Source of the DNA: an uncultured Flavobacteriaceae bacterium | GTDB lineage: Bacteria > Bacteroidota > Bacteroidia > Flavobacteriales > Flavobacteriaceae | DNA length: 64,000 bases | NCBI GenBank assembly: GCA_947504035.1 | Contig: CANNGA010000004.1 | Coordinates: 62,001 to 126,000, forward strand | Direction: 5' to 3' | Part shown: one piece after another, positions 17,182 through 59,608 of the stretch | How positions within the stretch are numbered: the first letter of the stretch is position 1 | How the letters are laid out: each line of letters starts with the position of its first letter | Notes under the pieces: generated by a model | What the model was told of the DNA's origin: nothing | The model's database searches: none | The model's input: the letters and a program-made list of their open reading frames with translations, nothing else | Translations under genes and position numbers: made by a program

Positions 17182-17205
17182 TTAAGATAAGGTTAATGGA
17201 TGCTT

Positions 17206-20008: not shown

Positions 20009-20011
20009 AAC

Positions 20012-41226: not shown

Positions 41227-42558
41227 TTAGAGATAAGGTGTTAATGGGGTTGTGCTGTTATTTACGTAGGTCTTGTGTAGACGTGCCATGTATTTTTTAA
41301 GAGACGTATCATGTAATACGGTATGAATTTTTGTGTTTATACTTTCAATACTATCTATAGTTTTGTCGCCTCGTAAGCCTATTTTATGATAGGCGAGACG
41401 TGCTGCATTGCCATCTTGATCGTAGTGCTGTCCAGAATATACAAGCATAGGCACCTTAAAATGAATGCATTCATTTATGGTATGGATACCGCCGTGGTTT
41501 ATACTACAATCGGTATGCGCGAGTACGGGAAGTTGAGGGACCCAACGGTGCAGAAATACATTTTTAGGCACAGCCGTTAAGGTATCAGGAATTGTTTTGC
41601 CTCCAAATGAAATAAGCAGTAACCAGTTGTTTTCATTGGCCACAGCTTTTATAAGTTTTGTTAAAAATGTGACATCCTCAGTAGGTGCCATAGTGGTAAG
41701 AGAGCAGTAAATAAGCTTCTTTTTGGTACTGTTTTTTAAGTTGATTATGGCGTTAATAGCATCTGGCATCTCAATTTTAGTACGATTTTCTGCAACCATA
41801 GCCCCAATGTATTGTACTGTGCTTGGCTTTTTATAGGGAAACTCAAGGGCTTCCATAACCATATAAAGGCTATCTATATTTTTATAGATAAATGCAGACG
41901 GGAAATTTCTTGAAATGCATTGAACAGTTGTTAAGCGTTCTTGTTTTAGGTACTGTTTTAATACCGAACGCCTGCTGTGTTCTAAACGTAGATTGTCCAT
42001 AACCATACGTCCTATAATTTTTAATTTGAGCTGTAACCATTCGAATTCAATACCTAAACGACTGCCACTAAACCCTTGTTTAGGTATGATTGTACTGCGT
42101 AAAGGTGGCAAATTGGATTGCCTTTGATTGAATAAAAAACAACTTAATAATTTTGTGTTTATGTTTAATTTAAGCGCAGGTAAAATAGCTTCATGAATTT
42201 CTAAATCTATAAGAGCGACATCTGGGTTTAAGGTGTTTAGAATGCGTTCGTAGTCTAAAAGTTGAAGTGCCGTAATCCCTGCATTGTATTGCTGTTTTAA
42301 ATGGGTGTAGTGGTAAATGTATTTAAAAAAGGTACTGTATTTTTTCTGGCGTAAGGCTTCTGTGTTTAAAAATGAAAATTTAAAGTTAATCTCAGGAAGT
42401 TGCACATAAGAAAGCCCTTGAGCTTTAACGAGAGCCTCAATAGGTTTCGGACACAAATAGGTAATGCGATGGCCTTCTGTTTGAAGCCTATGTGCCAGTT
42501 GAAAACTGGCATTTGTAATACCAACCAAGCCTGATGTTATGATAGCGATGTGTTTCAT
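41227..42558 (-). CDS. UDP-glycosyltransferase-like enzyme (GT1 family)
   Basis: 443 residues. The start MKHIAIITSGLVGITNASFQLAHRL and the C-terminal donor-binding segment INHGGIHTINECIHFKVPML...QHYDQDGNAARL fit GT1 enzymes such as macrolide or carotenoid glycosyltransferases. It most likely adds a sugar to the peptide product. It sits between the two NRPS genes with a 1-nt gap to the upstream one and 12 nt to the next, so it is part of the cluster. The donor sugar is unknown. Confidence 0.88.
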   Translation of the reverse strand: MKHIAIITSGLVGITNASFQLAHRLQTEGHRITYLCPKPIEALVKAQGLSYVQLPEINFKFSFLNTEALRQKKYSTFFKYIYHYTHLKQQYNAGITALQLLDYERILNTLNPDVALIDLEIHEAILPALKLNINTKLLSCFLFNQRQSNLPPLRSTIIPKQGFSGSRLGIEFEWLQLKLKIIGRMVMDNLRLEHSRRSVLKQYLKQERLTTVQCISRNFPSAFIYKNIDSLYMVMEALEFPYKKPSTVQYIGAMVAENRTKIEMPDAINAIINLKNSTKKKLIYCSLTTMAPTEDVTFLTKLIKAVANENNWLLLISFGGKTIPDTLTAVPKNVFLHRWVPQLPVLAHTDCSINHGGIHTINECIHFKVPMLVYSGQHYDQDGNAARLAYHKIGLRGDKTIDSIESINTKIHTVLHDTSLKKYMARLHKTYVNNSTTPLTPYL

Positions 42559-42559
42559 G

Positions 42560-45500
42560 TTACAGCTCTAAGGTGTTTAAAAGGGCGTCTAAATCGTCTT
42601 GATCTAAATCGACATCTTCAAAATCAGATGGGGTGTATCTTGTAGCAGTACTAGTTGTACAATGGTTTACAATGTCTTGTAGAATAGCTTTAAAGGCAGC
42701 GCTGCAATTTTGCATGGTTTCTGTTTGAAATGCGGTAGCGGCATAACTCCAATCCACCTGTAATTTGTCATTTTGTATCAAGGCGTTCACTTCTATATAG
42801 TAGTGGCGTTCACTCTGTGGTGCTCTCATGTGTTTGGTGAGAAAGGCCACATTGGTATCTGTATGCGATGAGGTTCCTAAAAAATTAAATACAATATTAG
42901 GGTAAGCAGCAGTACCTAATTTAGAGCTTAAATGCCTTAAGATGCCATAGCCTATACCATGTTGAGGCGTTTGGCGAAGGGTTTCTTTGGTTTGCATGAT
43001 ATGTTGCTCCAAATTAGAATGGTCTTCTACCTTTACTGTTTTAGGGAAGAAAGCTGTAAACCAACCTACTGTATTCGAAAGGTCGTGTTCTGGGCGATCG
43101 CTTGTCCTGCCATGGCGTTCTAATGCTAAAGCAATTTTAGAGGTCTTACTCCATTGCGATACGGCTAATGTAAAAGCAGCAAGTAAGAGCTCGTCTGTTT
43201 TTGTGTTATAAGCTGCATTCGCTTCTTTTTGAAGTTGTTGCGTGGTAGCGCTGTCTATTTCAAAAGCAATTCGATTTACGTCTTTTTCTAGAATAGGTAG
43301 GGGGCAGGCGTGGTCTAAGGGCAGCTCATTTTGGTGTGTTATTTCCTGTTGCCAATACGCCAATTCCTGATCTATAGCAGGCGTGTTTACCTGTTCTAAA
43401 AGGTAATTCCCCCATGTTTTTACAGAAGCTGTTTGCGTAAGCGGCTGTAGCTTCTGCCGCTCTAGAGTTGTTTTATAATAGTCGAGAAGCATTTGCCAAG
43501 ACACAACATCTATTACCAAATGGTGGGCGCTTAAAATGAAGCTATTTGTTGCAGGTGTTCCAGTTTCGATATACAAACATTGAAATAAATTACCTTGGTC
43601 TAAAGTGATTGCATTTTGAATAGCTTGCAATTGCGCTTCCAGGTGAGCAGATTGCTCGGCAAGCGGAACAGCTGATAGGTCTATAATTTGAAACCCTTTA
43701 TCTTCTGAAACCGGTTGTATAACAGCCTGCCAAGTGTTGTGTTTGAAATGAAATGCAGCGCGCAGCGCATCATGATGTTTAATGATGTTTTGGGTGATGC
43801 GTTTTACAAAATGTGCAGTTGCACCTTCGGGCAAGGTTTTAAAATGGAACCCTTGATTCCAATAATGTGGCGCGTTTTTGTGAGTTTCGAAAAACCATTC
43901 TTGAATAGGGAGTAAAGGTGTGGCACCAAAAGGAAGCGATTCGTGATGAACAGCACTCGTGCTTTCGGTAGTCACATAATGTGCGAGTTCTGCAATAGTT
44001 TGGTGTTCAAATATTTGATTTGGAGCGATATGAATGCCTTCAACTCTGGCTTTAGCCATAATTTGAATGCTTAGTATAGAATCGCCGCCAAGTTCGAAAA
44101 AATTATCATGAATGCTTAAATCTTCCAAATGCAGTAGACGTTTCCAAATGATGAGCAGTTGTGCTTCAGTAAGCGTTAATACTTTCGTTTCTGAAGGTTT
44201 TGTATGCTGTACGGTTTTTAAATTAGAAAGTGTTGTTGTATCAATTTTACCATTGGGAAGTCGTGGAATTTCATCTACGATGGTAAAATGACTTGGAATC
44301 ATATAATCGGGTAACTTTTCTTTTAATTCTGCTTTTAGTGTAGCCATAGTAAACCCAGCCGTTGTTTGTAAAAAGGCTATGAGTTGTTGTGTGCCTCTAG
44401 CATTTGTTTTTACCAGTACTACAGCTTGCTGTATGGCACTACTTTTAGTAAGCGTGGCTGTAATTGCATCTATTTCTACACGGTAGCCTCTAATTTTAAT
44501 TTGCTGATCTTTGCGTCCTAAAAATTCAATAGCACCATTGGTATTATACCGTGCCAAATCTCCCGTTTTATATAAGGTGGTATGTGGTGCAAATACTGGG
44601 TGGATAAATGCTTTTTGTGTTAATTCAGGATGGTTTAAATAGCCTTTAGAAAGCGTATCGCCACCAATGTATATCTCTCCAGACACTCCTACAGGCACTG
44701 GATGACCATTGGTGTCTAAAAGATGTATGCTGGCCTGCGCTACGGGGGTACCTATAGGAATTTGTGTGGCATTTATTAGTGTTTTAAGACTTACTTTATG
44801 CGCTATGCACCATACAGAAGCTTCTGTGGGGCCGTATTCGTTATATAGGGCTGTTTGTGGTAAGATTTCAAAATGCTTTTGACATAAGGGAACACTACAA
44901 CGTTCTCCTGCGACCATAACGGTTTGAAGTGTTTGTAGTTTAGAGGGGGAGATGTGTTCTAAAATAACAGCATAGAGGCTAGGCAGCATTAAGGTATGCG
45001 TAATCTTATGAGTGGCAATGGTATCTGCGATTTGCTCAAGATCTTGTTCTATACGTTTGGGAGTAACCACAAGTTTCCCCCCTGTACATAAGGTCCAAAA
45101 TAGTCCTGCTTTAGAACTGTCGAAGGCAATAGACGACATTAGTAAAAAGGCCTTAGGCATGTGTTCATAAAAAGTGAGACGCCCTGCGGTCGATTGGATG
45201 ATGTTTTTGTGGCTAATAGGAACGCCCTTAGGTTGCCCCGTGCTCCCAGAGGTGTAAATTACATAGGCTAAATCGTTGGGCTTGACTTCGGGTAATACGA
45301 TAGCGTCGGTACTAAGTGTACTTTGGTCTACACTAACCGTGGTCTTATTTAAAAGTTTAAATTGACTACGAAATGTGGTTTGGGTGACAATGGTATCTAC
45401 TTTAGCATCTTCTAAAATATATTCCATATGTGCTTTGGGGTAATCGGGATCTATAGGCAGATAGGCATAACCTGCCTTAAGAATGCCTAAAAGACCTACA

Positions 45501-47161
45501 ATCATATCTATAGACCGTTCGAGACACAAACCGACTATTTTGCCTATAGGAGCAGCGTGCATTAAAGATAGGGCAACGGCATTGGCACGTGTGTTTAAGG
45601 TTGTGTAATCGATATGCGCTGTTCCAAAAGCTACAGCTGTTTGCAAAGGTGTTGTTGCAGCAATTTGGGCAATACGTTCATGGATGCCATGATAGGTAGA
45701 GAATTCATGTGTTTCTGTTGGTGCCGTTGCAATTAAAGTCGTGTCAGCAGCTGTATGTACTGGAATTTTAGCGATTTCAGCATTTTGGTGTTTACCTATA
45801 AAATCTAGAGTTTCTACAAAGTAATCTTGAAATCGCGTTATAGTGTCTTCATTAAAAAGTGCAGTAGCATACTCTAAAGCCACAGTGAGCTGTCCTTGAT
45901 GTTCAGAGACAAATAGGGTAAGATCGAATTTAGATACTTTAGCGGTATATGCTGTTGGGGTTATTACTTGCAAATCGGTTCCAAAATCTGGGGTTTCTCC
46001 AGAACTGTTATAAACAAACATGGCTTGGAACAGCGGGTTTGCCGTTGTTGTGCGTTCTATGTGTAAAGCCTTAACGAGGACATCGAAAGGCAATTCTTTA
46101 TGTTCTAAGGCTTTAGAAAAAAGGCTGTTAATTGAGGTAATAAAAGCAGAAATAGTGCTATTAGGATCAATATTTGCTTTTAAAGCCATGGTATCGATAC
46201 ATAAACCGAATACGTCTTCTAAGCTGTTTTGAGACCTATTAGAAACAGGTGTGCCTACAACAATTTCGTCTTGTCTAGAAAAATTGTAGAGCATGATATA
46301 GTAGGCGGACAGGAATAGCACAAAAGGTGTGGTGTGTAGCGTTTTTGCTAAATCTAAAGCTGCATGGGCTATGGGCTGGGGGATGTCCAAACTTATGGTG
46401 TTCCCTTTATAGTTGGGAAGGTTTGGTCTTACCTTGTCTTTTGGCAAATTGAGCTGAGGTGGTAGTTCTGCGAACTGCGTTTTCCAATATTCTAGTGCTT
46501 TACTATAATTTTGCTGCTGTTGCCAATAGGCAAAATCCATATAGTTTATAGCGGCTTTAGAGGAAGGGGGTAAGGCCTCTCCTTTTATAAGTGCTGCATA
46601 CTGTCTGGCAATGGTCGTTTTTAAATGTTGCATGGACCATTGGTCTGTAATAATGTGGTGCAGCTTAAAAAAAAGCACATGACGGGTAGGACTTAATGTG
46701 TATAAGGTGATACGGTATAACGGCGCTTCGTTTAAATTAAAGGCCGTATGTGCCGCTTCGTCTAAGGCTGTGTTTGTTGCTTGTCGTGCTTTTTCAAGTG
46801 GCAAATGGCTAAAATCGACATGCTCTAGTTGAAACGCCAGACTTTCATCTATTTGAAATAGCGGCTTGCCATCAACTTCTGGATAGTACGATTTAAAGAT
46901 GCGATGGGTATCAAATAGATGTTTTAAGCTTAATGTAAGATGCGCTATATCTAATTGTCCGTTTAAGATGAGGTATTCTGAAAGGTTATAAAATGGATTA
47001 TCAGGATAGAGCTGTTGTAAAAACCATAAACTTTTTTGTTGGTGCGTTAAAGGTAACGCAGTGGTTTCAGGTACTTTTACTATGGCATTAGACGTTACAA
47101 CAGTTTTTGTTCTGTTCTTCCACCTACTGAGTAAACCTCCTTTAGTTAGATCTGTTTTCAA
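42560..47161 (-). CDS. NRPS module C-A-PCP-E
   Basis: 1533 residues. Condensation domain about 35-470 (HHIITDQ, His168-Asp173; Gln replaces the usual Gly). Adenylation domain about 485-985 (YTSGSTGQPKG, NEYGPTEASVW, YKTGDLARY, NGKID). PCP about 990-1065 with Ser1028 in LGGDSI, the form usual before epimerisation domains. Epimerisation domain about 1075-1520 (HHLVID at 1213-1218, NTVGWFT, GIGYGILR). The module thus adds one residue and inverts it to D. By-eye specificity residues read D-S-A-M-M-A-E-V-W, which I cannot assign. An acidic C-terminal tail (DFEDVDLDQDDLDALL) may dock to the next enzyme. HupE lies 24 nt upstream. Confidence 0.93.
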   Translation of the reverse strand: MKTDLTKGGLLSRWKNRTKTVVTSNAIVKVPETTALPLTHQQKSLWFLQQLYPDNPFYNLSEYLILNGQLDIAHLTLSLKHLFDTHRIFKSYYPEVDGKPLFQIDESLAFQLEHVDFSHLPLEKARQATNTALDEAAHTAFNLNEAPLYRITLYTLSPTRHVLFFKLHHIITDQWSMQHLKTTIARQYAALIKGEALPPSSKAAINYMDFAYWQQQQNYSKALEYWKTQFAELPPQLNLPKDKVRPNLPNYKGNTISLDIPQPIAHAALDLAKTLHTTPFVLFLSAYYIMLYNFSRQDEIVVGTPVSNRSQNSLEDVFGLCIDTMALKANIDPNSTISAFITSINSLFSKALEHKELPFDVLVKALHIERTTTANPLFQAMFVYNSSGETPDFGTDLQVITPTAYTAKVSKFDLTLFVSEHQGQLTVALEYATALFNEDTITRFQDYFVETLDFIGKHQNAEIAKIPVHTAADTTLIATAPTETHEFSTYHGIHERIAQIAATTPLQTAVAFGTAHIDYTTLNTRANAVALSLMHAAPIGKIVGLCLERSIDMIVGLLGILKAGYAYLPIDPDYPKAHMEYILEDAKVDTIVTQTTFRSQFKLLNKTTVSVDQSTLSTDAIVLPEVKPNDLAYVIYTSGSTGQPKGVPISHKNIIQSTAGRLTFYEHMPKAFLLMSSIAFDSSKAGLFWTLCTGGKLVVTPKRIEQDLEQIADTIATHKITHTLMLPSLYAVILEHISPSKLQTLQTVMVAGERCSVPLCQKHFEILPQTALYNEYGPTEASVWCIAHKVSLKTLINATQIPIGTPVAQASIHLLDTNGHPVPVGVSGEIYIGGDTLSKGYLNHPELTQKAFIHPVFAPHTTLYKTGDLARYNTNGAIEFLGRKDQQIKIRGYRVEIDAITATLTKSSAIQQAVVLVKTNARGTQQLIAFLQTTAGFTMATLKAELKEKLPDYMIPSHFTIVDEIPRLPNGKIDTTTLSNLKTVQHTKPSETKVLTLTEAQLLIIWKRLLHLEDLSIHDNFFELGGDSILSIQIMAKARVEGIHIAPNQIFEHQTIAELAHYVTTESTSAVHHESLPFGATPLLPIQEWFFETHKNAPHYWNQGFHFKTLPEGATAHFVKRITQNIIKHHDALRAAFHFKHNTWQAVIQPVSEDKGFQIIDLSAVPLAEQSAHLEAQLQAIQNAITLDQGNLFQCLYIETGTPATNSFILSAHHLVIDVVSWQMLLDYYKTTLERQKLQPLTQTASVKTWGNYLLEQVNTPAIDQELAYWQQEITHQNELPLDHACPLPILEKDVNRIAFEIDSATTQQLQKEANAAYNTKTDELLLAAFTLAVSQWSKTSKIALALERHGRTSDRPEHDLSNTVGWFTAFFPKTVKVEDHSNLEQHIMQTKETLRQTPQHGIGYGILRHLSSKLGTAAYPNIVFNFLGTSSHTDTNVAFLTKHMRAPQSERHYYIEVNALIQNDKLQVDWSYAATAFQTETMQNCSAAFKAILQDIVNHCTTSTATRYTPSDFEDVDLDQDDLDALLNTLEL

Positions 47162-47185: not shown

Positions 47186-48388
47186 TTATTTTAAGCCTAA
47201 AAATTTAGCCGTTTCATAAGCGGCCATAGTGATGTAATCGCCTATTTTTAAGTTGATATCAAAAGCACGTTCGATACACCAGTACAAGGAGATAATAATT
47301 AACAGGACAGACATGTACACTAAGAGTTTAGGATACAGTTTATGCTGGCGTATAAGATAGAGTATAGGGAAAATGGCAGCTATTATAGCCAATTGTCCCA
47401 ATTCTACACCAATATTAAAACCGAGTAAGGACAGCGATAAGAATTCGCTAGTTAGGCCCAAATCGCTTAAGACACTTGCAAAACCAAAACCGTGAAATAG
47501 CCCGAAAATAAAGGCAATAGTCCAATCTTTCATTTTAAAGATGGGTTTTATATTGTGGTAGGCTGCTAAACCAATAGAGAATGCAATGATAGACTCTACC
47601 ACTTGGGAAGGTAGGTTTATGAGTTGCAGTGCTGCTAAGGTTAATGTAATGGTATGGGCTATTGTAAAAAAGCTAACCACTTTTATGATAAATAGAAAAG
47701 CGGTTTTAAAATTCATAACAGGTGTCCATCCAAAAATACTGTCATTTTTTCGTTTCACTACGGCGGGTAGTATCAATGCTAATAAAAAGAGAATGTGGTC
47801 TATACCAATCCAAATATGCCAAACGCCTTGCTTTATCATGGCTATAAAACCAGTAAATACAGTCGATTCACTTAAATTAAGGCGGTCATTAGGAGCATCG
47901 GGCGAAAAATCTAAAGCAATATTAGCTTCATTATTTATCAATCCTGCTTTCCAATTGTATTCCATAATTAAGAACCCTTTATGGTCTGGATCTTCATTAA
48001 ATCCAATATTGTAAAAAACATCAAGGTGGTCTGGTATGGTTTTGAGTTGCTCCAGTTTAAAGTACAGCTGTACATAGTTTCCAGAGCTGATGGGTAAAAT
48101 ACCCATTTTATCGAAATGGATTTGGTGTGCACCTAATTCTGATTTAAAAGCAGCATTTTTTAACACATAAGCTTCTAAAAGTGACTTGTATGGTGTAATG
48201 GTTTCTAAAGTGGCGTCTTTTGGAAGGTCTAAATTAAAGATGGTATTGATTTCTTTAATATTGATTTCATAATGACCTTCAATGCCGTTAGTTTCATAAA
48301 TTCTTAAAAAGACATAGCTTTGGTTGGGGGCATGTGCATATCCTAATGCAGTAGCCAATACTAATAAGGCAAATAGTAATTTTCTCAT
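47186..48388 (-). CDS. HupE/UreJ-type membrane protein with exported N-terminal domain
   Basis: 400 residues. Signal peptide 1-19 ending in AHA; then a periplasmic domain of about 165 residues; then six or so membrane helices with the family motifs GVWHIWIGIDHILFLLALILP and FGLFHGFGFASVL. HupE/UreJ proteins belong to the nickel/cobalt transporter relatives. Here it is the first gene of the minus-strand NRPS operon (24 nt before the C-A-PCP-E gene), which links metal uptake to the peptide. The metal cannot be told from sequence. Confidence 0.88.
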   Translation of the reverse strand: MRKLLFALLVLATALGYAHAPNQSYVFLRIYETNGIEGHYEINIKEINTIFNLDLPKDATLETITPYKSLLEAYVLKNAAFKSELGAHQIHFDKMGILPISSGNYVQLYFKLEQLKTIPDHLDVFYNIGFNEDPDHKGFLIMEYNWKAGLINNEANIALDFSPDAPNDRLNLSESTVFTGFIAMIKQGVWHIWIGIDHILFLLALILPAVVKRKNDSIFGWTPVMNFKTAFLFIIKVVSFFTIAHTITLTLAALQLINLPSQVVESIIAFSIGLAAYHNIKPIFKMKDWTIAFIFGLFHGFGFASVLSDLGLTSEFLSLSLLGFNIGVELGQLAIIAAIFPILYLIRQHKLYPKLLVYMSVLLIIISLYWCIERAFDINLKIGDYITMAAYETAKFLGLK

Positions 48389-49607: not shown

Positions 49608-50759
49608 TTGGAGTTTTCGATAAGTACTAAGCAACAAGAGCTAAAAGCTGCATTTACCGCATTTGCACAGGAAGCGCTAAACAGTTCTGTTTTAGAAAAA
49701 GATAAAAACAGTATATTTTCTAAAGCAGAATGGTTGAAATGCGCGGCATTTGGAGTACAAGGGCTTACCATACCTAAAGCTTATGGAGGCAGTTCAGAAT
49801 CTATAGATTTACTTACAGCTGTCATGGCTATGGAAAGTTTAGGTTATGGGTGTCGCGACAATGGGTTACTATTAGCCCTTGGAGTACAAATGTGGACGGT
49901 ACACATCCCGATCGTTACATTTGGTACAGTAGCCCAAAAAGAAAAATTTTTACCTAAAATGGCATCGGGAGCATTGATTGCCTGTCATGCTTTAAGCGAG
50001 CCTGAGGCAGGATCGGATGTATTTAGCATGAAAACCACTGCTACAAAAGTAGAAGGTGGGTATCTTTTAAATGGTTCTAAATGTTTTATCACCTTAGGCC
50101 CTATTGCAGATGTTGCATTAGTATTCGCATCTACCAATCCCAAGGTGAAAAAATGGGGGATCAGTGCGTTTTTAGTCGCGCTTGATAGTCCTGGTGTATC
50201 TCGTAGTACCAATAAAGAAAAAATGGGCTTGCGTTCTGTTCCTATTGGAGATTTACACTTTAAAGATTGTTTTGTGCCAGAGGCACAGCTTTTAGGAAAA
50301 GAAGGTGCTGGCTGGAGCATTACCAACCATTCTTTAGAACATGACCGTTGTAGCATTTTAGCGACGCAACTAGGGGCTATGGCACGTCAATTAGATAGTT
50401 CTATTACGTATGTGAAAACACGTAAGCAATACGGGAAGCCTATTGGTGAATTTCAATCGGTTTCTAATAGAATAGCTGATATGAAATTGCGCATAGAAAC
50501 CTCTCGCTTATTGCTGTACCAAACGGCTTGGTTAAAAGGGCAAGATAAACCCGCTATGTTAGAAGCGGCGCTTTTAAAATTACAACTCACAGAAAGTTAC
50601 ATCAGTTCTAGTTTAGATCATGTACGCAACCATGGTGGTATGGGGTATTTGGTTGAAAACGAGGTAGAGCGAGACCTTAGGGATGCTGTAGGTAGTGCGA
50701 TTTACGCAGGCACATCAGACATACAACGAAATATCATTTCAAAATTATTAGGACTCTAA
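49608..50759 (+). CDS. Acyl-CoA-dehydrogenase-like flavoenzyme, probable aminoacyl-PCP (prolyl) dehydrogenase
   Basis: 383 residues with the full dehydrogenase fold (ALSEPEAGSD, GSKCFITLG, RKQYGKPIGEFQ, VRNHGGMGY). The start is a TTG at 49608, as no ATG lies before the conserved MEFSISTKQQ. The usual catalytic Glu near the C-terminus is replaced by Ala367 in YAGTSDIQ, whereas Glu244 in SLEHDRC sits at the isovaleryl-CoA-dehydrogenase position, as in prolyl-PCP oxidases. The next genes are a free A enzyme (5 nt) and a free PCP, the same trio that turns Pro into pyrrole-2-carboxyl-PCP. The substrate is inferred. Confidence 0.8.
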   Translation: MEFSISTKQQELKAAFTAFAQEALNSSVLEKDKNSIFSKAEWLKCAAFGVQGLTIPKAYGGSSESIDLLTAVMAMESLGYGCRDNGLLLALGVQMWTVHIPIVTFGTVAQKEKFLPKMASGALIACHALSEPEAGSDVFSMKTTATKVEGGYLLNGSKCFITLGPIADVALVFASTNPKVKKWGISAFLVALDSPGVSRSTNKEKMGLRSVPIGDLHFKDCFVPEAQLLGKEGAGWSITNHSLEHDRCSILATQLGAMARQLDSSITYVKTRKQYGKPIGEFQSVSNRIADMKLRIETSRLLLYQTAWLKGQDKPAMLEAALLKLQLTESYISSSLDHVRNHGGMGYLVENEVERDLRDAVGSAIYAGTSDIQRNIISKLLGL

Positions 50760-50764: not shown

Positions 50765-52324
50765 ATGGAAGCACCACTGTACAATTTAGCGCAAATTATA
50801 GGGCATGCCGCCAAGAAATACCCTCATAAAACAGCATTTAAATGTTGGGAGGCGACTGTAACATTTTCAGAATTAGAAGAAAAGACGAATCAACTTGCCG
50901 CTTGTCTTATAGGGCAAGGGGTACGTAAAGGCGATCGTGTGGGCATTTTAATGCACAGATGTTTAGATACAGCAATAGCCATTTATGGTATTTTGAAAGC
51001 AGGAGCTGTTTATGTGCCTATAGATCCTTTTTTACCCAATGCACGTATGGCTTTTGTGGTGAAAGATTGTGGTATTAAGCATGTGGTGACAACCGAACAA
51101 CACACAAAAAAAATTAAAACGTTGGTAACACAGCACCTAGATTTGGAAACCGTAATTGGTAGTGGTGCCGTAGAAGGGCTTAAAACCCTAACTTGGGATG
51201 CTGTTTTTAGCACAACACCGTATGTTGCTACTCCTGTTGCTATAGTAGCAGACGATTTGGCTTATATTCTGTACACTTCTGGTAGTACAGGTACGCCTAA
51301 AGGCATCATGCACACCCATGCAAGTGGTTTGGCTTTTGCGGCTTTGGTCGCTAAAGGTTACCAGTTGCAACCAGAGGATATTATAGCAAATTCAGCACCC
51401 ATACATTTTGACGTATCGTTACTAGGTTATTGTGCCGCGCCTTTAGCGGCAGCAACAACTATTATCATTCCAGATGCACATTTAAAATTTCCTTTAAGCT
51501 TGTCTGAATTGGTAGCAAAAGAACAGGTGAGCATTTGGTATTCTGTACCATTACTGCTTATAGAATTGCTACATAAAGGCGGTATTCAATACAAGGATTT
51601 TTCAAGCTTACGATGGGTATTGTTTGCAGGGGAGGTGTTTGCAACCAAACAGCTTAGAGCTTTAATGCAAGTATGGCCACAAGCTGTGTTTAGTAATATC
51701 TATGGCCCTACAGAATTGAACCAATGTACCTATTATAACCTTACAACGCCTCCAGAAACAGATGCGCCTATTCCTATTGGAACGACTTGGGGGAATACTG
51801 AATTTAAAATATTAGATGCCAACGATAAGGCTGTCGCTAAAGGCGAAGAAGGGCTTTTAGTGGTACGCTCTGCAACACTAATGAAGGGCTATTGGAATAA
51901 TAAAGCGTTGACGGAAGCTGCCTTGTATAAAGAAACAATTGTGCCCGGTTACGAGCAGGTGTATTACAGAACAGGCGATGTTGTGAGGCTTAATGCGGCT
52001 AACGAACTTTTGTTTTTAGGTCGGCAAGATCGGCAAATCAAGCTCAGAGGCTTTAGAATAGAAATAGATGCCATAGAAACGGTACTGTTGGCTCATGATG
52101 CCGTTTTAGAGGCCGCAGTAGTTCTTATAGAAACCGATACGGACGTCTCTAGATTAGAGGCTGCTGTGATTTTAGATACAGATTGTAATGTAAAGGTTTT
52201 AGACGCCCATTGCAGGGCGCATTTACCAAGTTATGCAGTGCCTAACAGCATTACAATACAGTCTTCTTTTCCTAGAACTAGTTCTGGAAAGATAGACAGA
52301 AAGCAAATTGAAACATTATTATAA
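50765..52324 (+). CDS. Free adenylation enzyme, predicted to activate proline
   Basis: 519 residues: a stand-alone A domain with YTSGSTGTPKG, NIYGPTELNQCTYY, YRTGDVVRL, RGFRIEIDAIE and the C-terminal SGKIDRKQ. By-eye alignment with GrsA gives specificity residues D216-V-L-Y-L-A-I-Q-C. This resembles the code I recall for free prolyl ligases of pyrrole pathways (D-L-L-Y-L-A-L-V-C). With the dehydrogenase before it and the free PCP after it, it should load Pro on that PCP. Assignment to proline is inferred; the family itself is certain. Confidence 0.85.
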   Translation: MEAPLYNLAQIIGHAAKKYPHKTAFKCWEATVTFSELEEKTNQLAACLIGQGVRKGDRVGILMHRCLDTAIAIYGILKAGAVYVPIDPFLPNARMAFVVKDCGIKHVVTTEQHTKKIKTLVTQHLDLETVIGSGAVEGLKTLTWDAVFSTTPYVATPVAIVADDLAYILYTSGSTGTPKGIMHTHASGLAFAALVAKGYQLQPEDIIANSAPIHFDVSLLGYCAAPLAAATTIIIPDAHLKFPLSLSELVAKEQVSIWYSVPLLLIELLHKGGIQYKDFSSLRWVLFAGEVFATKQLRALMQVWPQAVFSNIYGPTELNQCTYYNLTTPPETDAPIPIGTTWGNTEFKILDANDKAVAKGEEGLLVVRSATLMKGYWNNKALTEAALYKETIVPGYEQVYYRTGDVVRLNAANELLFLGRQDRQIKLRGFRIEIDAIETVLLAHDAVLEAAVVLIETDTDVSRLEAAVILDTDCNVKVLDAHCRAHLPSYAVPNSITIQSSFPRTSSGKIDRKQIETLL

Positions 52325-52399: not shown

Positions 52400-52636
52400 A
52401 TGAAAAATGAAATTTTATATTATTTACAAACAGAAGTTTCAGAAGGTTTAGAAGAAGACCAAATAGAAGCACAGGACGATTTGTTGGGGAGTGGCCTCGT
52501 AGATTCTCTGGGCATGATGCGCCTCATTCAGTTTATAGAAACGAAGGCAAATTTAAGCATTCCGCCAGAAGACATGACCATAGATAATTTTATGACAGTA
52601 GCACACATTTGTACTTATTTAGAATCTAAATACTAG
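52400..52636 (+). CDS. Free peptidyl/acyl carrier protein
   Basis: 78 residues, the size of a single carrier domain. The phosphopantetheine serine is Ser36 in GLVDSLGMMRL, followed by the usual second and third helices. It would hold the aminoacyl group made by the adenylation enzyme just upstream, so that the dehydrogenase can oxidise it, and then pass it to the condensation domain of the NRPS 13 nt downstream. Confidence 0.92.
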   Translation: MKNEILYYLQTEVSEGLEEDQIEAQDDLLGSGLVDSLGMMRLIQFIETKANLSIPPEDMTIDNFMTVAHICTYLESKY

Positions 52637-52649: not shown

Positions 52650-55600
52650 ATGAACACAACAACACTCTCAAAAAGCCAGCTCTCCATTTGGATGGGCCAG
52701 CAATTAAGTCCTAACGTGCCCTTATACAATATGGCACATGCTTTTAGCATTAAAGGTGCTATTGATGTGGATTGCTTTAACACCGCTTTTCAAGCCCTTT
52801 TAAATGAGGCAGATGTCTTGCGAACCGTATATGGTGCAGTAGATGGTGTGCCTTATCAAAACATACGTGCCCCTTTTGCATATACCATGGAATATATTGC
52901 GGTAGAAACTATGCCGCCTTTAGAACTACAGGACTGGCTTAGTGCACGTAGTAAAATTAATTTTAATTTAGAAGAAGGTGTATTCGACAGTGCTTTGTTA
53001 AAGTTAGGAGAAGCCGATTTTATTTGGTTTTTTAATGTCCATCATATTGCCACAGACGCCACAACTTCTACATTACTTTTAGAGCGTATGAGCCGTTTGT
53101 ATACTGCGTTGAAAACGGATACTTTAGAGACCATAGCAGCCTTGCCTCAATTTGCAGATTATCTCAAACAAGAACAGACGTTTCGCAGTTCAGAAGCTGT
53201 AAAGCCCATTCAAACCTACTGGAAGGACAAAGTTAAGGCGATTGAACGTCCTAAATTGTATGGTCGTGTGAGTAAAAATGAAAGTACAGCAGCTAAACGT
53301 TTGTACTTAGATTTGGGGGCAGAACGTTCCCAACAGCTTAGAACTATAGCCCAGCAAGCGGATATACGATGCTGGACAGAAGACCTTACCTTATTCAACA
53401 TATTTGCGACACTACTTTTTACATACATATATAGAGTAAGTGGGCAAAACACATTAGCGATAGGCACGCCTTCTCATAATAGACCAACAAAAGCTTTAAA
53501 AGCTACACCGGGCTTATTTGTAGAGTTTTTTCCTTTAGTAGCCGATTTGAATGCAGAAGCATCGTTTTTAGATGTTTACCAAGCCGTAAAAGTAGAAACC
53601 AATACTTATTTACGCCATGCACAAGCAGGAGCGTCTTCAGCAGATTTAAGTAAAAGTTACAATGTTATTTTAAATTATATCACTGCAAAGTTTTCTGGTT
53701 TTGATGGGGTAAAGGTCGCTTCAGAATGGCTGCACCCAGAACATGTAGATCTTGGACATGCGCTAAGATGCCATGTGTACGACATGGACGATTCTGGAGA
53801 GATAGCATTACTGTTAGATCTTAATGCAGAGGTGTTTCCTGAACAGCAATATGAGGCGGTTACCTCTCATATGTTACAGACTATTGATGCATTTATTTTA
53901 GACCGAACACAGTCTATAGGGCAGTTTTCTATGGTATCAGATGTTGAAACAGCAGCCATGTCACCTTTACAGGTCACAGAAGGAATATCTAAAAAAGGCA
54001 CTGTTTTAGACGCTTTTGAAGCACAGGTGCAACAAACACCCAATGCTATTGCGTTGCAGTATAACACAGAAACCCTAACCTACAGGGGCTTAAATAGAAA
54101 AGCGAACCAATTGGCGTATTACCTTGTACAGCAAGGTGCTAAACCTGGTGCTTCTGTAGCGATACACAGTTATAGAAATTCGAATTATATCGTAAGCGTT
54201 TTAGCAGTTTTAAAAATTGGAGGCACCTTTATTCCTATAGCTTCCAATCAGCCTAAAGACCGTATAGCGTTTATTTTAGAAGACTCAAAAAGTGCATTTG
54301 CCATTGTAGAAGACCGTTTGCTTGAAGGCTTTCCTACACATTTGGCTTCTGTTGTAAATGTACAAGCACTAAAGGCAACTTTAGCAAGCCAACCAGAAAC
54401 GATGTTTCATACCAATGTTAAGCCGTCAGATTTGGCTTATGTATTATACACTTCGGGGTCGACGGGGCAACCCAAAGGCGTGTTAATTTCTAATAAAGCC
54501 CTGTCTAATTACATATTTTGGGCGCAAACCCATTACGGGTTTGGGAAAACGTCCAGTTTTGCATTGTGTACTGCGATTGGTTTCGATTTAACTATTACCT
54601 CTACATTTGTACCTTTAGTTAGCGGTGGTAGAATGCTTATTTATGAAGAAGATGCCTCTGGATGGGATGCCGCGTTATTAGATGCTGTAAAGGATAATAA
54701 AGCAGATACTATAAAGGTAACACCATCGCATTTAACGCTTTTAAAAGACCATCAGTTTCAAGATTCCAGTATAAGAACAATTATTGTAGGTGGTGAAGAT
54801 TTTAAAGCTAGTTTAGGACAGGGGATCAAAGCGACATTGGGTACAGCTGTTACCATTTATAATGAGTATGGGCCTACAGAAGCCACAGTAGGCTGTATTG
54901 TAAGTACGTTTCAACCCGAAATTCATACCCAAGGTTCTATTCCTATTGGGCTACCAGTGCCACATATGCAGGCTTATGTTTTAGATGCTTACCAGAATAG
55001 AGTGCCTCAAGGTGTTGTAGGTGAATTGTACATTAGCGGTTCTAGTTTGGCAGAAGGGTATTTAAATCTCGAAACGGCTACTGCTGCTAAATTTTTAAAC
55101 AATCCCTTTGTTACAGGGTCTAAAATGTACAAAACAGGCGATCTTGTACGACAAAATAGCGCTGGCGTATTTGAGTATTTAGGACGAACAGATGAGCAGG
55201 TTAAATTAAGAGGCTATCGTATTGAGTTGCCAGAAATAGAAGCCAATATGTCGGCATTGGATGGTATAGCCCATTGCGCGGTTGTATTAACGACGCCAGA
55301 AAAGACAGAAACCATTCCTACAGAAGCCTTTAATTGTGTAACCTGTGGTTTGCCTTCTAATTACCCGCAAACCGATTTTGATGCCAAAGGGGTTTGTAAT
55401 CTTTGTAATGCGTTTGAGGGGTATAAAGATAAAGCTCAGAATTATTTTAAAACCGAGGAAGAACTGCATACCATTTTAACCGCAAAAAAGGGTGAAAGCC
55501 CAGAATACGATTGTTTAACCCTTTTAAGTGGAGGTAAGGACAGCACCTATATTCTAGCACAATTGGTAAATATGGGCTTAAAGGTTTTGGCATTTACTTT

Positions 55601-56783
55601 AGATAATGGGTACATCTCAGAACAAGCTAAAGGGAATATAGAACGTATCGTCAGGCAGCTAAATGTAGATCATATTTATGGCGAAACAAACCACATGAAC
55701 GAAATTTTCGTAGATAGCTTACACCGTCATAAAAATGTGTGTAATGGGTGTTTTAAAACCATTTACACCTTAAGTACAAAAATAGCTATGGAACGTCACA
55801 TCCCATTTATCGTAACAGGTTTATCTAGAGGTCAGTTTTTTGAAACTCGCCTTACCGAAGAACTCTTTTGGGACGAAGATTTAGATGTGACCAAAATAGA
55901 CGATACTATTCTTGAAGTTAGAAAATTATACCACAGAGAAGACGATGCTGTAAAACTCTTATTGGATGTATCTATGTTTGAAGATGATGCTGTTTTTGAA
56001 AGCGTAAAATTTATCGATTTTTACAGGTATTCAGATGTGAGCTTAGAGGCCATGTTAAAGTACCTAGAAGACACTATAGGTTGGGTACGACCTACAGATA
56101 CGGGACGCTCTACCAATTGTTTAATCAATCAAGTGGGGATTTCTGTACATAAAAAAGAACGCGGGTATAGTAACTATTCTTTTCCATACAGTTGGGATGT
56201 ACGTTTAGGGCACAAAACAAGAGATGAGAGTTTAGAAGAAATTAATGAATATATAGATGAGGTAGAAGTGCAGCGCATTATGGCAGAGATAGGGTACGAA
56301 GCACCTCTTAGTAGACCAGATGAACCCCAATTGGTTGCTTATTATACCGGAGAAAAAGACTTAAATACAGCGGTACTTAAGGCGCAATTGGCAAAGCGAT
56401 TGCCAGCGTACATGTTGCCAGCAACATTCAAGTATTTAGAGGTCTTGCCGCTTACAAAAAATGGTAAAACGGATAAAAATGCCTTAAGCCGTCTAACTTT
56501 AGAGCAAATAGAGGCAGAGGTGTCTTATGTGGCACCGCGAAATGATATTGAAACTTTGATAGCGGCCGTTTGGAAAGCCGTATTACGTATAGAGAAAATT
56601 GGAGTTCATGATAATTTTATTGCTTTAGGAGGTCATTCATTAGCCGCTATTAGAGTAACTTCTAGACTAAATGAAGCTTTAGAGTTAGAAATGCCTTTGC
56701 ATTTGGTATTTAATTTGCCAACAATAGCCGAATATGCAAAACGTATTGAAGACACCATTACAGCATTATTACATGAAGCCTAA
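52650..56783 (+). CDS. NRPS C-A-PCP with embedded PP-loop amidotransferase-like domain
   Basis: 1377 residues. Condensation domain about 5-440 (HHIATDA, His131-Asp136). Adenylation domain about 450-890 (YTSGSTGQPKG, NEYGPTEATVG, RGYRIELPEIE) resuming at about 1226-1290 (LVAYYTGEKD, AYMLPATFKY, NGKTDKN); PCP with Ser1330 in LGGHS. By-eye specificity residues D646-L647-T650-K689-I-G-E739-V-G equal the known Asn code. Residues about 890-1225 form an inserted PP-loop domain: CVTC (896-899), CNLC (916-919), SGGKDS (960-965), CNGC (1031-1034), a layout like N-acetyl-sugar amidotransferases (WbpG/PseA). PP-loop enzymes adenylate a carbonyl for attack by N or S. The insertion site (A8-A9) is where other NRPS tailoring domains sit. 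Confidence 0.93.
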   Translation: MNTTTLSKSQLSIWMGQQLSPNVPLYNMAHAFSIKGAIDVDCFNTAFQALLNEADVLRTVYGAVDGVPYQNIRAPFAYTMEYIAVETMPPLELQDWLSARSKINFNLEEGVFDSALLKLGEADFIWFFNVHHIATDATTSTLLLERMSRLYTALKTDTLETIAALPQFADYLKQEQTFRSSEAVKPIQTYWKDKVKAIERPKLYGRVSKNESTAAKRLYLDLGAERSQQLRTIAQQADIRCWTEDLTLFNIFATLLFTYIYRVSGQNTLAIGTPSHNRPTKALKATPGLFVEFFPLVADLNAEASFLDVYQAVKVETNTYLRHAQAGASSADLSKSYNVILNYITAKFSGFDGVKVASEWLHPEHVDLGHALRCHVYDMDDSGEIALLLDLNAEVFPEQQYEAVTSHMLQTIDAFILDRTQSIGQFSMVSDVETAAMSPLQVTEGISKKGTVLDAFEAQVQQTPNAIALQYNTETLTYRGLNRKANQLAYYLVQQGAKPGASVAIHSYRNSNYIVSVLAVLKIGGTFIPIASNQPKDRIAFILEDSKSAFAIVEDRLLEGFPTHLASVVNVQALKATLASQPETMFHTNVKPSDLAYVLYTSGSTGQPKGVLISNKALSNYIFWAQTHYGFGKTSSFALCTAIGFDLTITSTFVPLVSGGRMLIYEEDASGWDAALLDAVKDNKADTIKVTPSHLTLLKDHQFQDSSIRTIIVGGEDFKASLGQGIKATLGTAVTIYNEYGPTEATVGCIVSTFQPEIHTQGSIPIGLPVPHMQAYVLDAYQNRVPQGVVGELYISGSSLAEGYLNLETATAAKFLNNPFVTGSKMYKTGDLVRQNSAGVFEYLGRTDEQVKLRGYRIELPEIEANMSALDGIAHCAVVLTTPEKTETIPTEAFNCVTCGLPSNYPQTDFDAKGVCNLCNAFEGYKDKAQNYFKTEEELHTILTAKKGESPEYDCLTLLSGGKDSTYILAQLVNMGLKVLAFTLDNGYISEQAKGNIERIVRQLNVDHIYGETNHMNEIFVDSLHRHKNVCNGCFKTIYTLSTKIAMERHIPFIVTGLSRGQFFETRLTEELFWDEDLDVTKIDDTILEVRKLYHREDDAVKLLLDVSMFEDDAVFESVKFIDFYRYSDVSLEAMLKYLEDTIGWVRPTDTGRSTNCLINQVGISVHKKERGYSNYSFPYSWDVRLGHKTRDESLEEINEYIDEVEVQRIMAEIGYEAPLSRPDEPQLVAYYTGEKDLNTAVLKAQLAKRLPAYMLPATFKYLEVLPLTKNGKTDKNALSRLTLEQIEAEVSYVAPRNDIETLIAAVWKAVLRIEKIGVHDNFIALGGHSLAAIRVTSRLNEALELEMPLHLVFNLPTIAEYAKRIEDTITALLHEA

Positions 56784-57246
56784 TTGTTTAAAAGGCTTTA
56801 AGCCATTTGTGTTTAAAATAATGCTACTCATTATGGGAATGTGTTATGTACTGCATCCAATTCACGAAGAGTTAAAGGAGGTGTTGCATAGTTGGTCTCA
56901 TCAATTAGAGTTTACCGTTGCTGTACAGGAAGAAACGCATGCTCAAATGGGGCTTGGTCAATATTCAGCAGCGCATTTGTTGAGGCATAAAACGCATGAA
57001 CATAGTATTTTAGATGTTTTTGAAGCGCTTTTAAAAGGAGAGGAATCATCTAATACCGATGATGAGGTGCCTGTTACGAAAGATGTTAAACTTGATAAAC
57101 ATATACGACGAACATTGCAAAATCAGAATCAAGACAATACATTTGTGGCGCAGCTACTACAAAAGGCATTTCTAGACAAGCAGCAAGCGGTACATAAGGG
57201 CTATGTAAATCTTATTTTACAGCCACCAAATCCGTTAGGGTACTAA
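56773..57246 (+). CDS. Small His-rich membrane-anchored protein
   Basis: 157 residues from the ATG at 56773, which overlaps the NRPS end by 11 nt; an upstream in-frame ATG (56734) lies inside the NRPS gene. A single membrane segment (about 10-28) is followed by a soluble part rich in His (HPIHEEL, HSWSHQ, RHKTHEHS) and acidic residues. I recognise no family. Position between the NRPS and the TonB receptor suggests a role in handling the metal or its complex. This is inference. Confidence 0.65.
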   Translation: MKPNCLKGFKPFVFKIMLLIMGMCYVLHPIHEELKEVLHSWSHQLEFTVAVQEETHAQMGLGQYSAAHLLRHKTHEHSILDVFEALLKGEESSNTDDEVPVTKDVKLDKHIRRTLQNQNQDNTFVAQLLQKAFLDKQQAVHKGYVNLILQPPNPLGY

Positions 57247-57373: not shown

Positions 57374-59608
57374 ATGTTAAAGAAAATAATACTACTATTA
57401 CTGTTGTTAAGTGCTGGGTTAACCTATGCGCATGATCTTAGCGGTACAGTAATGTCTAACGATAATGAAAAACCGTTACAAGATGTAGGGGTGTATAATA
57501 AAACAACGGGTGCTTATACCTATACGAATGTATCGGGGTACTTCGAATTAGATGATATCTCTTTAGGAGACATTATTTACTTTTACCAGTTGGGTTACGA
57601 AAACTATGAAGTTACCGTTACTGAAGCAAACCTAGACAGTAACATAACAGTACGTATGCGTATTGCTCCAGCATCTTTAGATCAAATATTGGTTGTATCT
57701 AAAGTGAATGCATTAAGTAATTTTGTAAATATAGATGTACAAACCAGCCCTGTAAAATCATCTCAGGAAATTTTACGTAAAATACCAGGGTTAATCATTG
57801 GTCAGCATGCTGGTGGTGGTAAAGCAGAGCAAATCTTTTTAAGAGGCTTTGATATCGATCACGGTACTGATATTGCCATAGAAGTAGATGGTATGCCTGT
57901 AAATATGGTATCTCATGCACACGGCCAAGGCTATGCAGACATGCACTTTGTCATTCCAGAAACCATAGAAAATTTAGATTTTGGTAAAGGGTCGTATTAC
58001 GCCGATAAAGGAAACTTTAATACAGCGGGTTATGTGGATGTGAAAACCAAAAAAACAATAGATGAGAATGTCATTTCTGTAGAAGCAGGACAATTTAATA
58101 CAGTACGTGCATTAAGTATGCTGAAATTAATCAGTTCTGAAAAAAGTAATGCTTATGTGGCGAGTGCATTGAGTTTATCTGATGGAGTGTTTGATTCTCC
58201 TCAAAATTTTAACCGTCTTAATATTATGGGACGTTACAATTTTAATAATTACGAAGATCAAGAGTTTAGTATTGCCTTGTCTCATTTTCAAAGCAAGTGG
58301 GATGCCTCAGGACAAATTCCACAGCGTGCCGTAGATCAAGGTATTATAGGACGTTTTGGAGCTATAGACGATACTGAAGGGGGAAATACAAGTAGAACCA
58401 ACATTTGGTTGAACCATAACAAGCAATTGGACGAACATTCTAATATTGAATCTTCAGCATACTTGACGAAATATAATTTTGAGTTGTTTTCAAACTTTAC
58501 GTTCTTCTTAGAAGATCCTGTAAATGCAGATCAAATTCGTCAATTTGAAGACCGTACTATCATTGGTGCGAAGTCTGCGTACAAACGTTCATTACATTTA
58601 GAAGACCACGATGCCCAGTTGAATTATGAATTAGGGATTGGGTTTCGTTATGACGATATAAATGATAATCAGTTGTCCAGAACACGCAACAGAAGAGAAT
58701 TGTTAGAGCGTTTGGCTTTTGGTGATGTAGACGAAGTTAATGGGTTTTCGTATGCCAATTTAAAGTACAAATGGAATAAATTAACGATTAATCCAGGGGT
58801 GCGTTTAGATTATTTTACGTTCGATTATGTCGATTTTCTATCAGATACCTTCGACAGTAGAAGTGAAGATAAAGTTTTGGTAAGTCCAAAATTAAACTTT
58901 ATTTATGCGGCATCTCCTAAAACACAGTTATTTTTAAAATCTGGTTTTGGATTTCACTCTAACGACAGTAGAGTTGTGACAGCTAATAGTGGTGAAGATA
59001 TTTTACCAACGGCATTTAGTACCGATTTAGGGACTATTTTTAAGCCTACCGATAAGTTGGCTATTAATGCAGCACTATGGAGTTTATTTTTGCAACAAGA
59101 ATTTGTATATGTGGGCGATGCGGCTATTGTAGAACCTAGCGGAAGAACACAGCGTTTTGGAGTGGACTTTGGTGTGCGTTACCAGTTAACAGACTGGTTG
59201 TATGCGAATACAGACATTAACTATGCCTATGCAAGAAGTGTAGACGCGCCTAATGGAGAAGATTTTATTCCGTTAGCACCAGATTTAACCTCTGCAGGAG
59301 GCTTAAGTTTTAAGGATTTAGGTCATTTTTCTGGAGGGGTAAGTTACCGTTACATAAAAGACCGTCCAGCTAACGAAGATAATTCTATAGAAGCAGAAGG
59401 GTATTTTGTAACCGACCTTAATTTGAATTACAATTATAAAAATTGGACTTTAGGTGTAGTGGTTGAAAATCTATTAGATACAGAATGGAATGAAACCCAA
59501 TTTGCAACCGAAAGTCGCTTGTTTAATGAAGCGGCACCTGTAGAAGAGATTCATTTTACTCCGGGAACCCCTTTCTTTATGAGAGCGAAACTATCGGTGA
59601 GATTTTAA
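57374..59608 (+). CDS. TonB-dependent outer-membrane receptor
   Basis: 744 residues. Signal peptide 1-19; an N-terminal carboxypeptidase-regulatory-like domain (about 22-95, LSGTVMSNDNEKPLQDVGVY); plug about 115-230 with IPGLIIGQHAGGGKAEQIFLRGFDIDHG; then a beta-barrel ending in a C-terminal aromatic (MRAKLSVRF). The plug's HAHGQGYADMHF is His-rich and may contact metal. Such receptors import metal chelates or similar ligands. As last gene of the plus-strand operon it probably takes up the loaded peptide. The substrate is inferred. Confidence 0.9.
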   Translation: MLKKIILLLLLLSAGLTYAHDLSGTVMSNDNEKPLQDVGVYNKTTGAYTYTNVSGYFELDDISLGDIIYFYQLGYENYEVTVTEANLDSNITVRMRIAPASLDQILVVSKVNALSNFVNIDVQTSPVKSSQEILRKIPGLIIGQHAGGGKAEQIFLRGFDIDHGTDIAIEVDGMPVNMVSHAHGQGYADMHFVIPETIENLDFGKGSYYADKGNFNTAGYVDVKTKKTIDENVISVEAGQFNTVRALSMLKLISSEKSNAYVASALSLSDGVFDSPQNFNRLNIMGRYNFNNYEDQEFSIALSHFQSKWDASGQIPQRAVDQGIIGRFGAIDDTEGGNTSRTNIWLNHNKQLDEHSNIESSAYLTKYNFELFSNFTFFLEDPVNADQIRQFEDRTIIGAKSAYKRSLHLEDHDAQLNYELGIGFRYDDINDNQLSRTRNRRELLERLAFGDVDEVNGFSYANLKYKWNKLTINPGVRLDYFTFDYVDFLSDTFDSRSEDKVLVSPKLNFIYAASPKTQLFLKSGFGFHSNDSRVVTANSGEDILPTAFSTDLGTIFKPTDKLAINAALWSLFLQQEFVYVGDAAIVEPSGRTQRFGVDFGVRYQLTDWLYANTDINYAYARSVDAPNGEDFIPLAPDLTSAGGLSFKDLGHFSGGVSYRYIKDRPANEDNSIEAEGYFVTDLNLNYNYKNWTLGVVVENLLDTEWNETQFATESRLFNEAAPVEEIHFTPGTPFFMRAKLSVRF

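Follow-up and report, generated by a model that had tools for sequence, protein, structure and literature searches.

Thioamidated nonribosomal peptides have been called exceedingly rare, and the first thioamide synthetase described for such a peptide is CtaC, the closthioamide synthetase of Ruminiclostridium cellulolyticum, which acts in trans (PMC6772006). CtaC modifies chains bound to CtaE but not free substrates, and it requires ATP, sulfide and a cluster; residues D77/S78 of its PP-loop are essential, activity is diminished in C154A/C157A/C284A, and these three cysteines hold a [4Fe-4S] cluster for sulfur transfer. Its gene cluster encodes no sulfur-mobilising enzyme (PMC6772006). Cysteines in the same CXXC...C arrangement hold a sulfur-transfer [4Fe-4S] cluster in TtuA and in Thermotoga LarE (PMC7138817, PMC9283937). 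Adenylation (A) domains of nonribosomal peptide synthetases (NRPSs) can be interrupted by tailoring domains; the insertions named in the accessible sections of PMC11355689 and PMC8949500 are methyltransferase, oxidase, monooxygenase and reductase domains, a PP-loop domain not being among them, and methyltransferase domains so placed are reported there to modify the carrier-attached residue. Here we describe a PP-loop domain inserted into the A domain of an NRPS encoded in a 64,000-nt stretch of DNA from an uncultured marine Flavobacteriaceae bacterium (the window; coordinates are positions in it, and L-numbers designate relative loci).

A single uninterrupted open reading frame (ORF) at 52650-56783 encodes a 1377-aa NRPS with the order condensation (C) domain, A domain and peptidyl carrier protein (PCP), in which a domain of ~330 aa lies between A motifs A8 and A9. 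This insert is probably a [4Fe-4S]-dependent PP-loop sulfurtransferase within an interrupted A domain, that is, an in-line thioamide synthetase. The features of the NRPS are given below, with counts over 83 aligned proteins (80 relative loci, the window, a Roseovarius plasmid protein and L175) or over 25 stand-alone proteins of the related WbuX family.

52650-56783, + strand: NRPS, 1377 aa, C-A[PP-loop insert]-A subdomain-PCP (ORF, Pfam, NCBIfam)
52656-53960, + strand: condensation domain, residues 3-437, with HHIATDA (PF00668; motif)
54015-55304, + strand: A domain core, residues 456-885, code DLTKIGEVG (AA-adenyl-dom, E 8.7e-119)
55317-56315, + strand: inserted PP-loop (AANH) domain, residues 890-1222 (TIGR03573, AlphaFold, Foldseek)
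55335-55406, + strand: tetracysteine CxxC...CxxC, C896, C899, C916 and C919 (83/83 aligned; putative zinc site, by analogy with the N-acetyl-sugar amidotransferase LpNASAT)
55527-55544, + strand: PP-loop motif SGGKDS, residues 960-965 (83/83 aligned)
55740-55751, + strand: CNGC, with C1031 and C1034 as the first two proposed [4Fe-4S] ligands (83/83 embedded, 2/25 stand-alone; aligned with the LarE CxxC)
56118-56120, + strand: C1157 in STNC, third proposed [4Fe-4S] ligand (83/83 embedded, 2/25 stand-alone; outside the LarE alignment)
56316-56468, + strand: C-terminal subdomain of the A domain after the insert, A9-A10 (PF13193, profile positions 21-76)
56559-56747, + strand: PCP, residues 1304-1366 (PF00550; serine in 82/83, one gap)

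The initial annotation had placed a PP-loop domain in this A domain at the A8-A9 site, with CxxC, CxxC, SGGKDS and CxxC in that order. All of this held: the motifs are present as claimed (C896xxC899, C916xxC919, SGGKDS at 960-965 and C1031xxC1034), within positions 55335-56330 (residues 896-1227), together with C1157, which had gone unmentioned, and the embedding is borne out by Pfam and NCBIfam profiles, by AlphaFold and by 80 of 80 relative loci. The Pfam AMP-binding match covers residues 456-805 and the AMP-binding_C match residues 1223-1273, at profile positions 21-76 only; since the latter profile begins at position 21 after the insert, it is split by the insertion, as expected between A8 and A9. 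An AlphaFold model of the whole module (39 sequences, mean pLDDT 85.0, pTM 0.54), an analysis that the initial annotation had proposed, likewise put the insert inside the C-terminal subdomain, between strands at residues 875-881 and 1227-1233, although at this pTM the relative placement of the domains is not to be trusted.

The fusion is recurrent. Within the family it was found in 28 of 397 genomes, the window's own included, from 22 of 237 genera, each time as an unbroken ORF of 1373-1426 aa. Across Bacteroidota as a whole, few genomes have it (2/296, one of them the window's own). Scanning of the genome_contigs collection found 130 relatives, of which the best 80 were kept, the other 50 not being seen. 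The insert lies between A core and A subdomain in all 80, accompanied by a PCP in 79 and a C domain in 77; L108 is without the PCP and L110, L121 and L130 are without the C domain, owing to contig ends or a broken frame (only the last stretch of the A core is in frame in L110 and L121, and the A core of L130 is cut by a contig end). Proteins for alignment were chosen by the motifs SGGKDS and S[ST]NC, which all 80 loci passed, so none was lost to selection. SGGKDS and the seven cysteines are invariant in the 83 proteins, the row of L105 being without C896 only because its extract started downstream of that residue. An assembly error or a chance motif is ruled out by these 83 proteins with the domain in frame, and the artefactual joining of two genes that the initial annotation had considered does not agree with a fusion shared by 28 family genomes and 80 loci.

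Over the 80 loci, the insert had a median identity to the window protein of 73.6%, compared with 48.0% in the A core and 39.2% in the C domain, and the insert was more conserved than the A core in 80/80; judged by these identities, the insert is the part of the NRPS under the strongest constraint. Carrier titles name Flavobacteriaceae, Saprospiraceae, Cyclobacteriaceae and other Bacteroidota, and carrier metagenome-assembled genomes are labelled Acidobacteria, Gemmatimonadetes, Anaerolineae and Acidimicrobiia, labels that rest on unchecked binning. Plasmids of Roseovarius and Pseudohalocynthiibacter also match, and the embedding was read directly in the Roseovarius NRPS. In a midpoint-rooted tree the PP-loop domains of the 83 embedded proteins are monophyletic (support 0.797); the next branch to join them (support 0.923) is a PP-loop domain from Streptomyces that is attached to a condensation-like domain and not embedded, and stand-alone WbuX proteins fall outside. 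Host A domains also group together (68/68 extracted, of 83), with a support of only 0.349, and stand-alone A domains form no clade under the rooting used. The simplest reading of these phylogenies would be one insertion event followed by spread.

As the initial annotation had expected, profile searches matched the insert to PP-loop families. The nearest is WbuX/TIGR03573 (residues 896-1206, E 4e-35), with scores of 121.8 bits for the whole protein and 126 bits for the insert, both below the family cut-off of 203.2; weak matches were obtained with QueC (PF06508, residues 955-1029, E 1.8e-07), LarE, TtuA, TtcA and ThiI. An AlphaFold model of the insert (49 sequences, pLDDT 90.3, pTM 0.89) was closest in Foldseek to LpNASAT 8wex (E 2.7e-11), followed by TtuA, YcfA and [4Fe-4S] LarE; TM-scores normalized by query length were 0.57-0.58 for N-acetyl-sugar amidotransferases (NASATs) and only 0.28-0.39 for the TtuA, YcfA and LarE rows. 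LpNASAT is reported to hold a zinc tetracysteine (PMC10607449), and the corresponding cysteines are kept in 83/83 embedded domains and, depending on the position, in 21-25 of the 25 stand-alone WbuX proteins.

What separates the insert from this family is a second set of cysteines, the CXXC...C triad formed by C1031, C1034 and C1157. It is complete in 83/83 embedded domains versus 2/25 stand-alone WbuX proteins (no ORF from five of the 30 stand-alone loci entered this alignment), and absent from four glutaminase-fused WbuX proteins and from the single sugar NASAT of the Roseovarius plasmid. To call the triad wholly absent from stand-alone WbuX would be too strong, the exact count with all three cysteines being 2/25. 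It is an all-or-none character in the alignment, where one or two of the three were never seen alone. In hhalign, the insert CXXC falls on the CXXC of three-cysteine LarE (probability 95.2, 120 columns; five of the six LarE sequences fetched were used), and phmmer likewise aligns it with PDB 8cnz, titled mmLarE-[4Fe-4S]. A TtcA query of the phylum gave matches below the cut-off only (17/61 genomes) and was not used.

The triad also occurs in two Streptomyces proteins and in two WbuX-like Bacteroidota outliers. One Streptomyces protein (L177:12190-18112, plasmid of Streptomyces sp. NBC_01216) carries the triad-bearing PP-loop domain at the N-terminus of a condensation-like protein, with genes for an A-PCP protein and for asparagine synthase next to it. 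On a plasmid of Streptomyces sp. NBC_00470, L179:7704-8852 is a stand-alone protein of 382 aa with SGGKDS, CWPC and STNC, encoded near acyl carrier protein and ketosynthase genes, and is perhaps another carrier-bound sulfur inserter. In L170-L173, WbuX is fused to an N-terminal domain recognised by eye as a class II glutaminase from its MCGIFG start, and none of these proteins has the triad.

The initial annotation had labelled the domain amidotransferase-like, which agrees with its nearest family and fold; the triad and the gene neighbourhood point instead to sulfur. Enzymes of this type that use ammonia tend to keep a glutaminase nearby: HisH or HisF lies within 1.5 kb in 24 of the 30 stand-alone WbuX loci (tblastn, E<1e-4). 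By comparison, no homologue of HisH, HisF, class II glutaminase or AsnB was detected among the called ORFs of the 80 loci (10 kb of flank at most, less in some) and of window positions 36001-64000 (blastp, E<1e-5), 81 loci in all. The invariant triad, the LarE alignment and the lack of an ammonia partner in these loci together favour sulfur, and hence a thioamide, among the products that the initial annotation had left open (amidine, thioamide, nitrile or Asp-to-Asn conversion). The last of these is made unlikely by the Asn code of the host A domain (81/81 readable proteins). The cysteine spacing of the insert, 67/123 (C1034-C1157 being 123), is comparable to that of CtaC, 77/127 (C157-C284 being 127).

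Several points weigh against a sulfurtransferase. The best family model is an amidotransferase and the nearest solved structure a NASAT; and the third cysteine, C1157, lies beyond the 120 columns of the LarE alignment. One of the two triad-bearing stand-alone WbuX proteins, L145, directly adjoins HisH and HisF, so that carrying the triad is not in itself proof of sulfur insertion; around the second one, L149, no HisH or HisF occurs within 18 kb. The Roseovarius plasmid, which is outside the 81 loci, has HisF and HisH ~12 kb from the embedded NRPS, within an operon NASAT-HisF-NeuD-HisH, and we read them as partners of the ordinary sugar NASAT in that operon. CtaC is oxygen-sensitive (PMC6772006), while many of the named hosts are marine Flavobacteriaceae, presumably aerobic. 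Finally, no recurrent sulfur-donor gene was noticed in the neighbourhoods, although no search aimed at one was made. As a separate observation, L145 (also L206:7160-9658) and L149 may be cases in which the triad acts beyond sulfur insertion, or may be unrecognised thio-sugar enzymes.

The alternative that survives best is an ammonia-dependent amidotransferase like WbpG/WbuX, which would convert the Asn side-chain or backbone amide to an amidine. Its near full-length TIGR03573 match, the fold and zinc-type tetracysteine in common with 8wex and the HisH/HisF neighbours of L145 all speak for it, and the ammonia might come free or from a partner encoded at another place in the genome. We nevertheless consider it unlikely, given the empty neighbourhoods of the 81 loci and a triad that is missing from 23/25 stand-alone and 4/4 glutaminase-fused proteins but kept in every embedded one.

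If the insert is a sulfurtransferase, its substrate can be narrowed down from the host A domain. The code reads DLTKIGEVG, which is Asn-type by the Stachelhaus codes, as the initial annotation had also read it; code positions were set by motif, after GrsA. An Asn-type code with E at position 322 was found in 81/81 readable proteins (DLTKIGEVG in 71, DLSKIGEVG in 5, DLTKIGEIG in 4 and DLTKVGEVG in 1; two of the 83 were not covered). The A10 lysine is kept in 82/83, with one gap, and the catalytic residues of the A domain are retained. Because the Asn code is kept throughout, the most likely target would be the Asn side-chain carboxamide, giving 4-thio-asparaginyl-PCP; a possible second choice is the backbone amide that links the starter acyl group to Asn, CtaC being an example of backbone modification. 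Among 17 stand-alone A domains of these clusters, the eight from loci with a prolyl-dehydrogenase gene have NQC soon after YGP[AT]E, and the nine without that gene have ILC (seven) or another ending (two). The starter thus seems to vary while the Asn code is fixed, which also favours the Asn side chain.

A constant Asn substrate would also suit a QueC/ToyM-like dehydration, in which the adenylated Asn amide is eliminated to a nitrile (beta-cyano-alanine), a chemistry that needs no ammonia donor. The partial PF06508 match is consistent with it, but spans just 75 residues around the PP-loop and is far weaker than that of WbuX, and the invariant CXXC...C would be left unexplained, so that we regard a nitrile as improbable. 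Internal ring closure, with the PP-loop domain activating a carbonyl for attack by a nitrogen of the same molecule as in carbapenam synthetase, appears more improbable still: carbapenam and asparagine synthetases do appear lower in the Foldseek list, and in clusters such as L107, L114 and L126 the flanks fetched are without a second NRPS of the common cluster, but three inserts scanned had no NCBIfam match to carbapenam or asparagine synthetase families at E 0.1, and the triad again has no role. In-line amidation of a loaded Asp to Asn, although PP-loop ligases are able to amidate acids, and a non-catalytic spacer are hardly credible beside the Asn code with E322, the lack of an ammonia partner and an active-site motif kept in 83/83.

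For the in-line thioamide synthetase we propose the following mechanism. The A domain would load Asn onto its own PCP, after which the PP-loop domain would use ATP to adenylate an amide oxygen of the residue on the carrier. C1031, C1034 and C1157 would bind a cluster whose open iron carries a sulfide, and this sulfide would displace AMP. The resulting thioamide (+15.98 Da) would probably act as a soft ligand for metal in a small metallophore that the TonB receptor takes back up. The domain order, its conservation, the cysteine pattern, the fold class and the gene context are observed directly, whereas cluster binding, sulfur as the inserted atom, the choice of amide and metal binding are inferred. 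The general idea of the initial annotation, an in-line ATP-dependent change of a carbonyl in an Asn module, is supported at the level of sequence.

The genes around the NRPS are listed below. Counts over the 81 loci are lower bounds, small ORFs being under-called and some loci short. Each name was assigned from one or two members, except that the small PCP and the His-rich protein were recognised by eye.

38052-38789, - strand: 4'-phosphopantetheinyl transferase (domain scan)
38770-41214, - strand: C-PCP-thioesterase NRPS (domain scan)
41227-42558, - strand: glycosyltransferase-like protein, present in some clusters (MGT model, below cut-off; 14/81 loci)
42560-47161, - strand: second NRPS, C-A-PCP followed by a second condensation-type domain, an epimerisation-like tail (TIGR01720)
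47186-48388, - strand: HupE/UreJ-type membrane protein (tblastn matches annotated HupE/UreJ; PF13795 on relative L116; 60/81 loci)
49608-50759, + strand: prolyl-PCP dehydrogenase-like protein, PigA/RedW type (NF053553, E 2.5e-117, 392.2 bits, below the cut-off of 500)
50765-52324, + strand: stand-alone A domain, probably for prolyl/starter adenylation (Pfam; substrate suggested by the adjacent dehydrogenase)
52400-52636, + strand: stand-alone PCP-like ORF of 78 aa (by eye; 58/81 loci, cluster 3)
56734-57246, + strand: small His-rich protein (no Pfam match; 46/81 loci); its first codons overlap the NRPS end and the true start may be later
57374-59608, + strand: TonB-dependent receptor (Pfam; 64/81 loci)

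A stand-alone A domain was recognised in at least 55 of the 81 loci, a prolyl-PCP dehydrogenase in 33 and an ornithine-cyclodeaminase-like protein in 27. No second NRPS belonging to the common cluster was seen in clusters like L107, L114 and L126 (their flanks end at 10 kb), which suggests that in these a starter-Asn unit could be enough. The gene set of prolyl starter genes, TonB receptor and HupE/UreJ protein suggests a metallophore, as far as gene content can tell. One relative of the receptor lies ~4.4 kb past a HoxN-type nickel/cobalt transporter on Cupriavidus pHG1; in Hymenobacter, a second relative has HupE/UreJ and a cytochrome c peroxidase in its vicinity. Neither is decisive for the metal; no TonB receptor is annotated in the Roseovarius plasmid stretch. 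Among 50 promoter regions, no recurrent or shared palindrome that could be a regulator box was found; an element, TCATCGAAAA, occurs in one orientation in 13 of them, in the interval that separates HupE from the starter gene (as in L065, L067 and L076), and was not found in the window's own promoter region. Putting these elements together, we tentatively raise the possibility of a widespread family of thio-asparagine metallophores, in which a starter, often pyrrole-2-carboxylate, would be joined to an Asn whose side chain is thioamidated by the embedded [4Fe-4S] PP-loop domain. Methanobactin might then have its nonribosomal counterpart in such compounds, which would offer N,S ligands to copper or nickel and would occur in Bacteroidota, Alphaproteobacteria and probably several further phyla.

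In 13 paired loci and in L116, the A domain of the second NRPS seems to be divided over two ORFs that meet between A8 and A9 (L058:2598-5504, 1794-2585 and 211-1797; also L072, L075 and L116:12721-20825), with ORF tails that by eye resemble docking helices. Six loci have at or next to the split a ~262-aa ORF that looks by eye like an S-adenosylmethionine-dependent methyltransferase; the one scanned had no Pfam match. The A8-A9 site thus holds a PP-loop domain in the first NRPS and a protein junction in the second.

Elsewhere in the window, positions 12969-21805 hold genes for a VgrG-like protein (Phage_base_V) and for a protein with a Tle1-like phospholipase, together with a tandem array of five lipoprotein-like genes. 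A scan of one of the five gave DUF2931; identity to the first gene of the array is 92-96% for three of the others and 56% for one. The set looks like a type VI secretion system effector with multiplied immunity genes. A second array of this style lies at 3514-11340: behind the gene for a 981-aa protein, which had no match in Pfam, five lipoprotein-like genes stand in tandem on the same strand (314-326 aa, 44-97% identical to the first).

In the literature searched, from which most subscription papers and all bioRxiv preprints were outside, we found no report of a PP-loop/NRPS A domain fusion. The statement in the initial annotation that no NRPS domain of this kind had been described stands within that literature, although CtaC, described in 2019, offers a functional precedent as a stand-alone protein (PMC6772006). 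If our reading is true, an Asn-selecting A domain with its own sulfur-insertion domain would amount to a portable thioamidation module and a new type of interrupted A domain, and would provide a genome-mining handle for a product class of which no report was found. With 83 aligned proteins, the locus is common and conserved enough for direct testing.

Among known systems, NASATs (TIGR03573 WbuX/WbpG; LpNASAT 8wex) share with the insert the fold, the zinc-type tetracysteine and the PP-loop. The insert differs from them by its score below the family cut-off, its triad (83/83 vs 2/25), the lack of HisH/HisF in 81 loci and its position within an NRPS. Interrupted A domains of the TioS and KtzH type resemble this NRPS in having a tailoring domain at A8-A9 and a working-looking A domain; the 2020 survey of such domains by Lundy reportedly deals with methyltransferase insertions. 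TtuA, NcsA, TtcA and [4Fe-4S] LarE combine, like the insert, a PP-loop with three cysteines, and they insert sulfur through a three-cysteine [4Fe-4S] cluster (PMC9283937, PMC7138817); unlike it, they are stand-alone proteins acting on tRNA or pyridinium nucleotide substrates, with only partial sequence similarity. CtaC is like the insert in being a PP-loop AANH protein with CXXC...C, and has a reported Fe-S cluster and carrier-bound peptidyl substrates. It is a separate protein of an NRPS-independent pathway that acts on the backbone amides of a poly-beta-alanine chain (PMC6772006), whereas the insert lies within an Asn A domain and bears a zinc-type tetracysteine.

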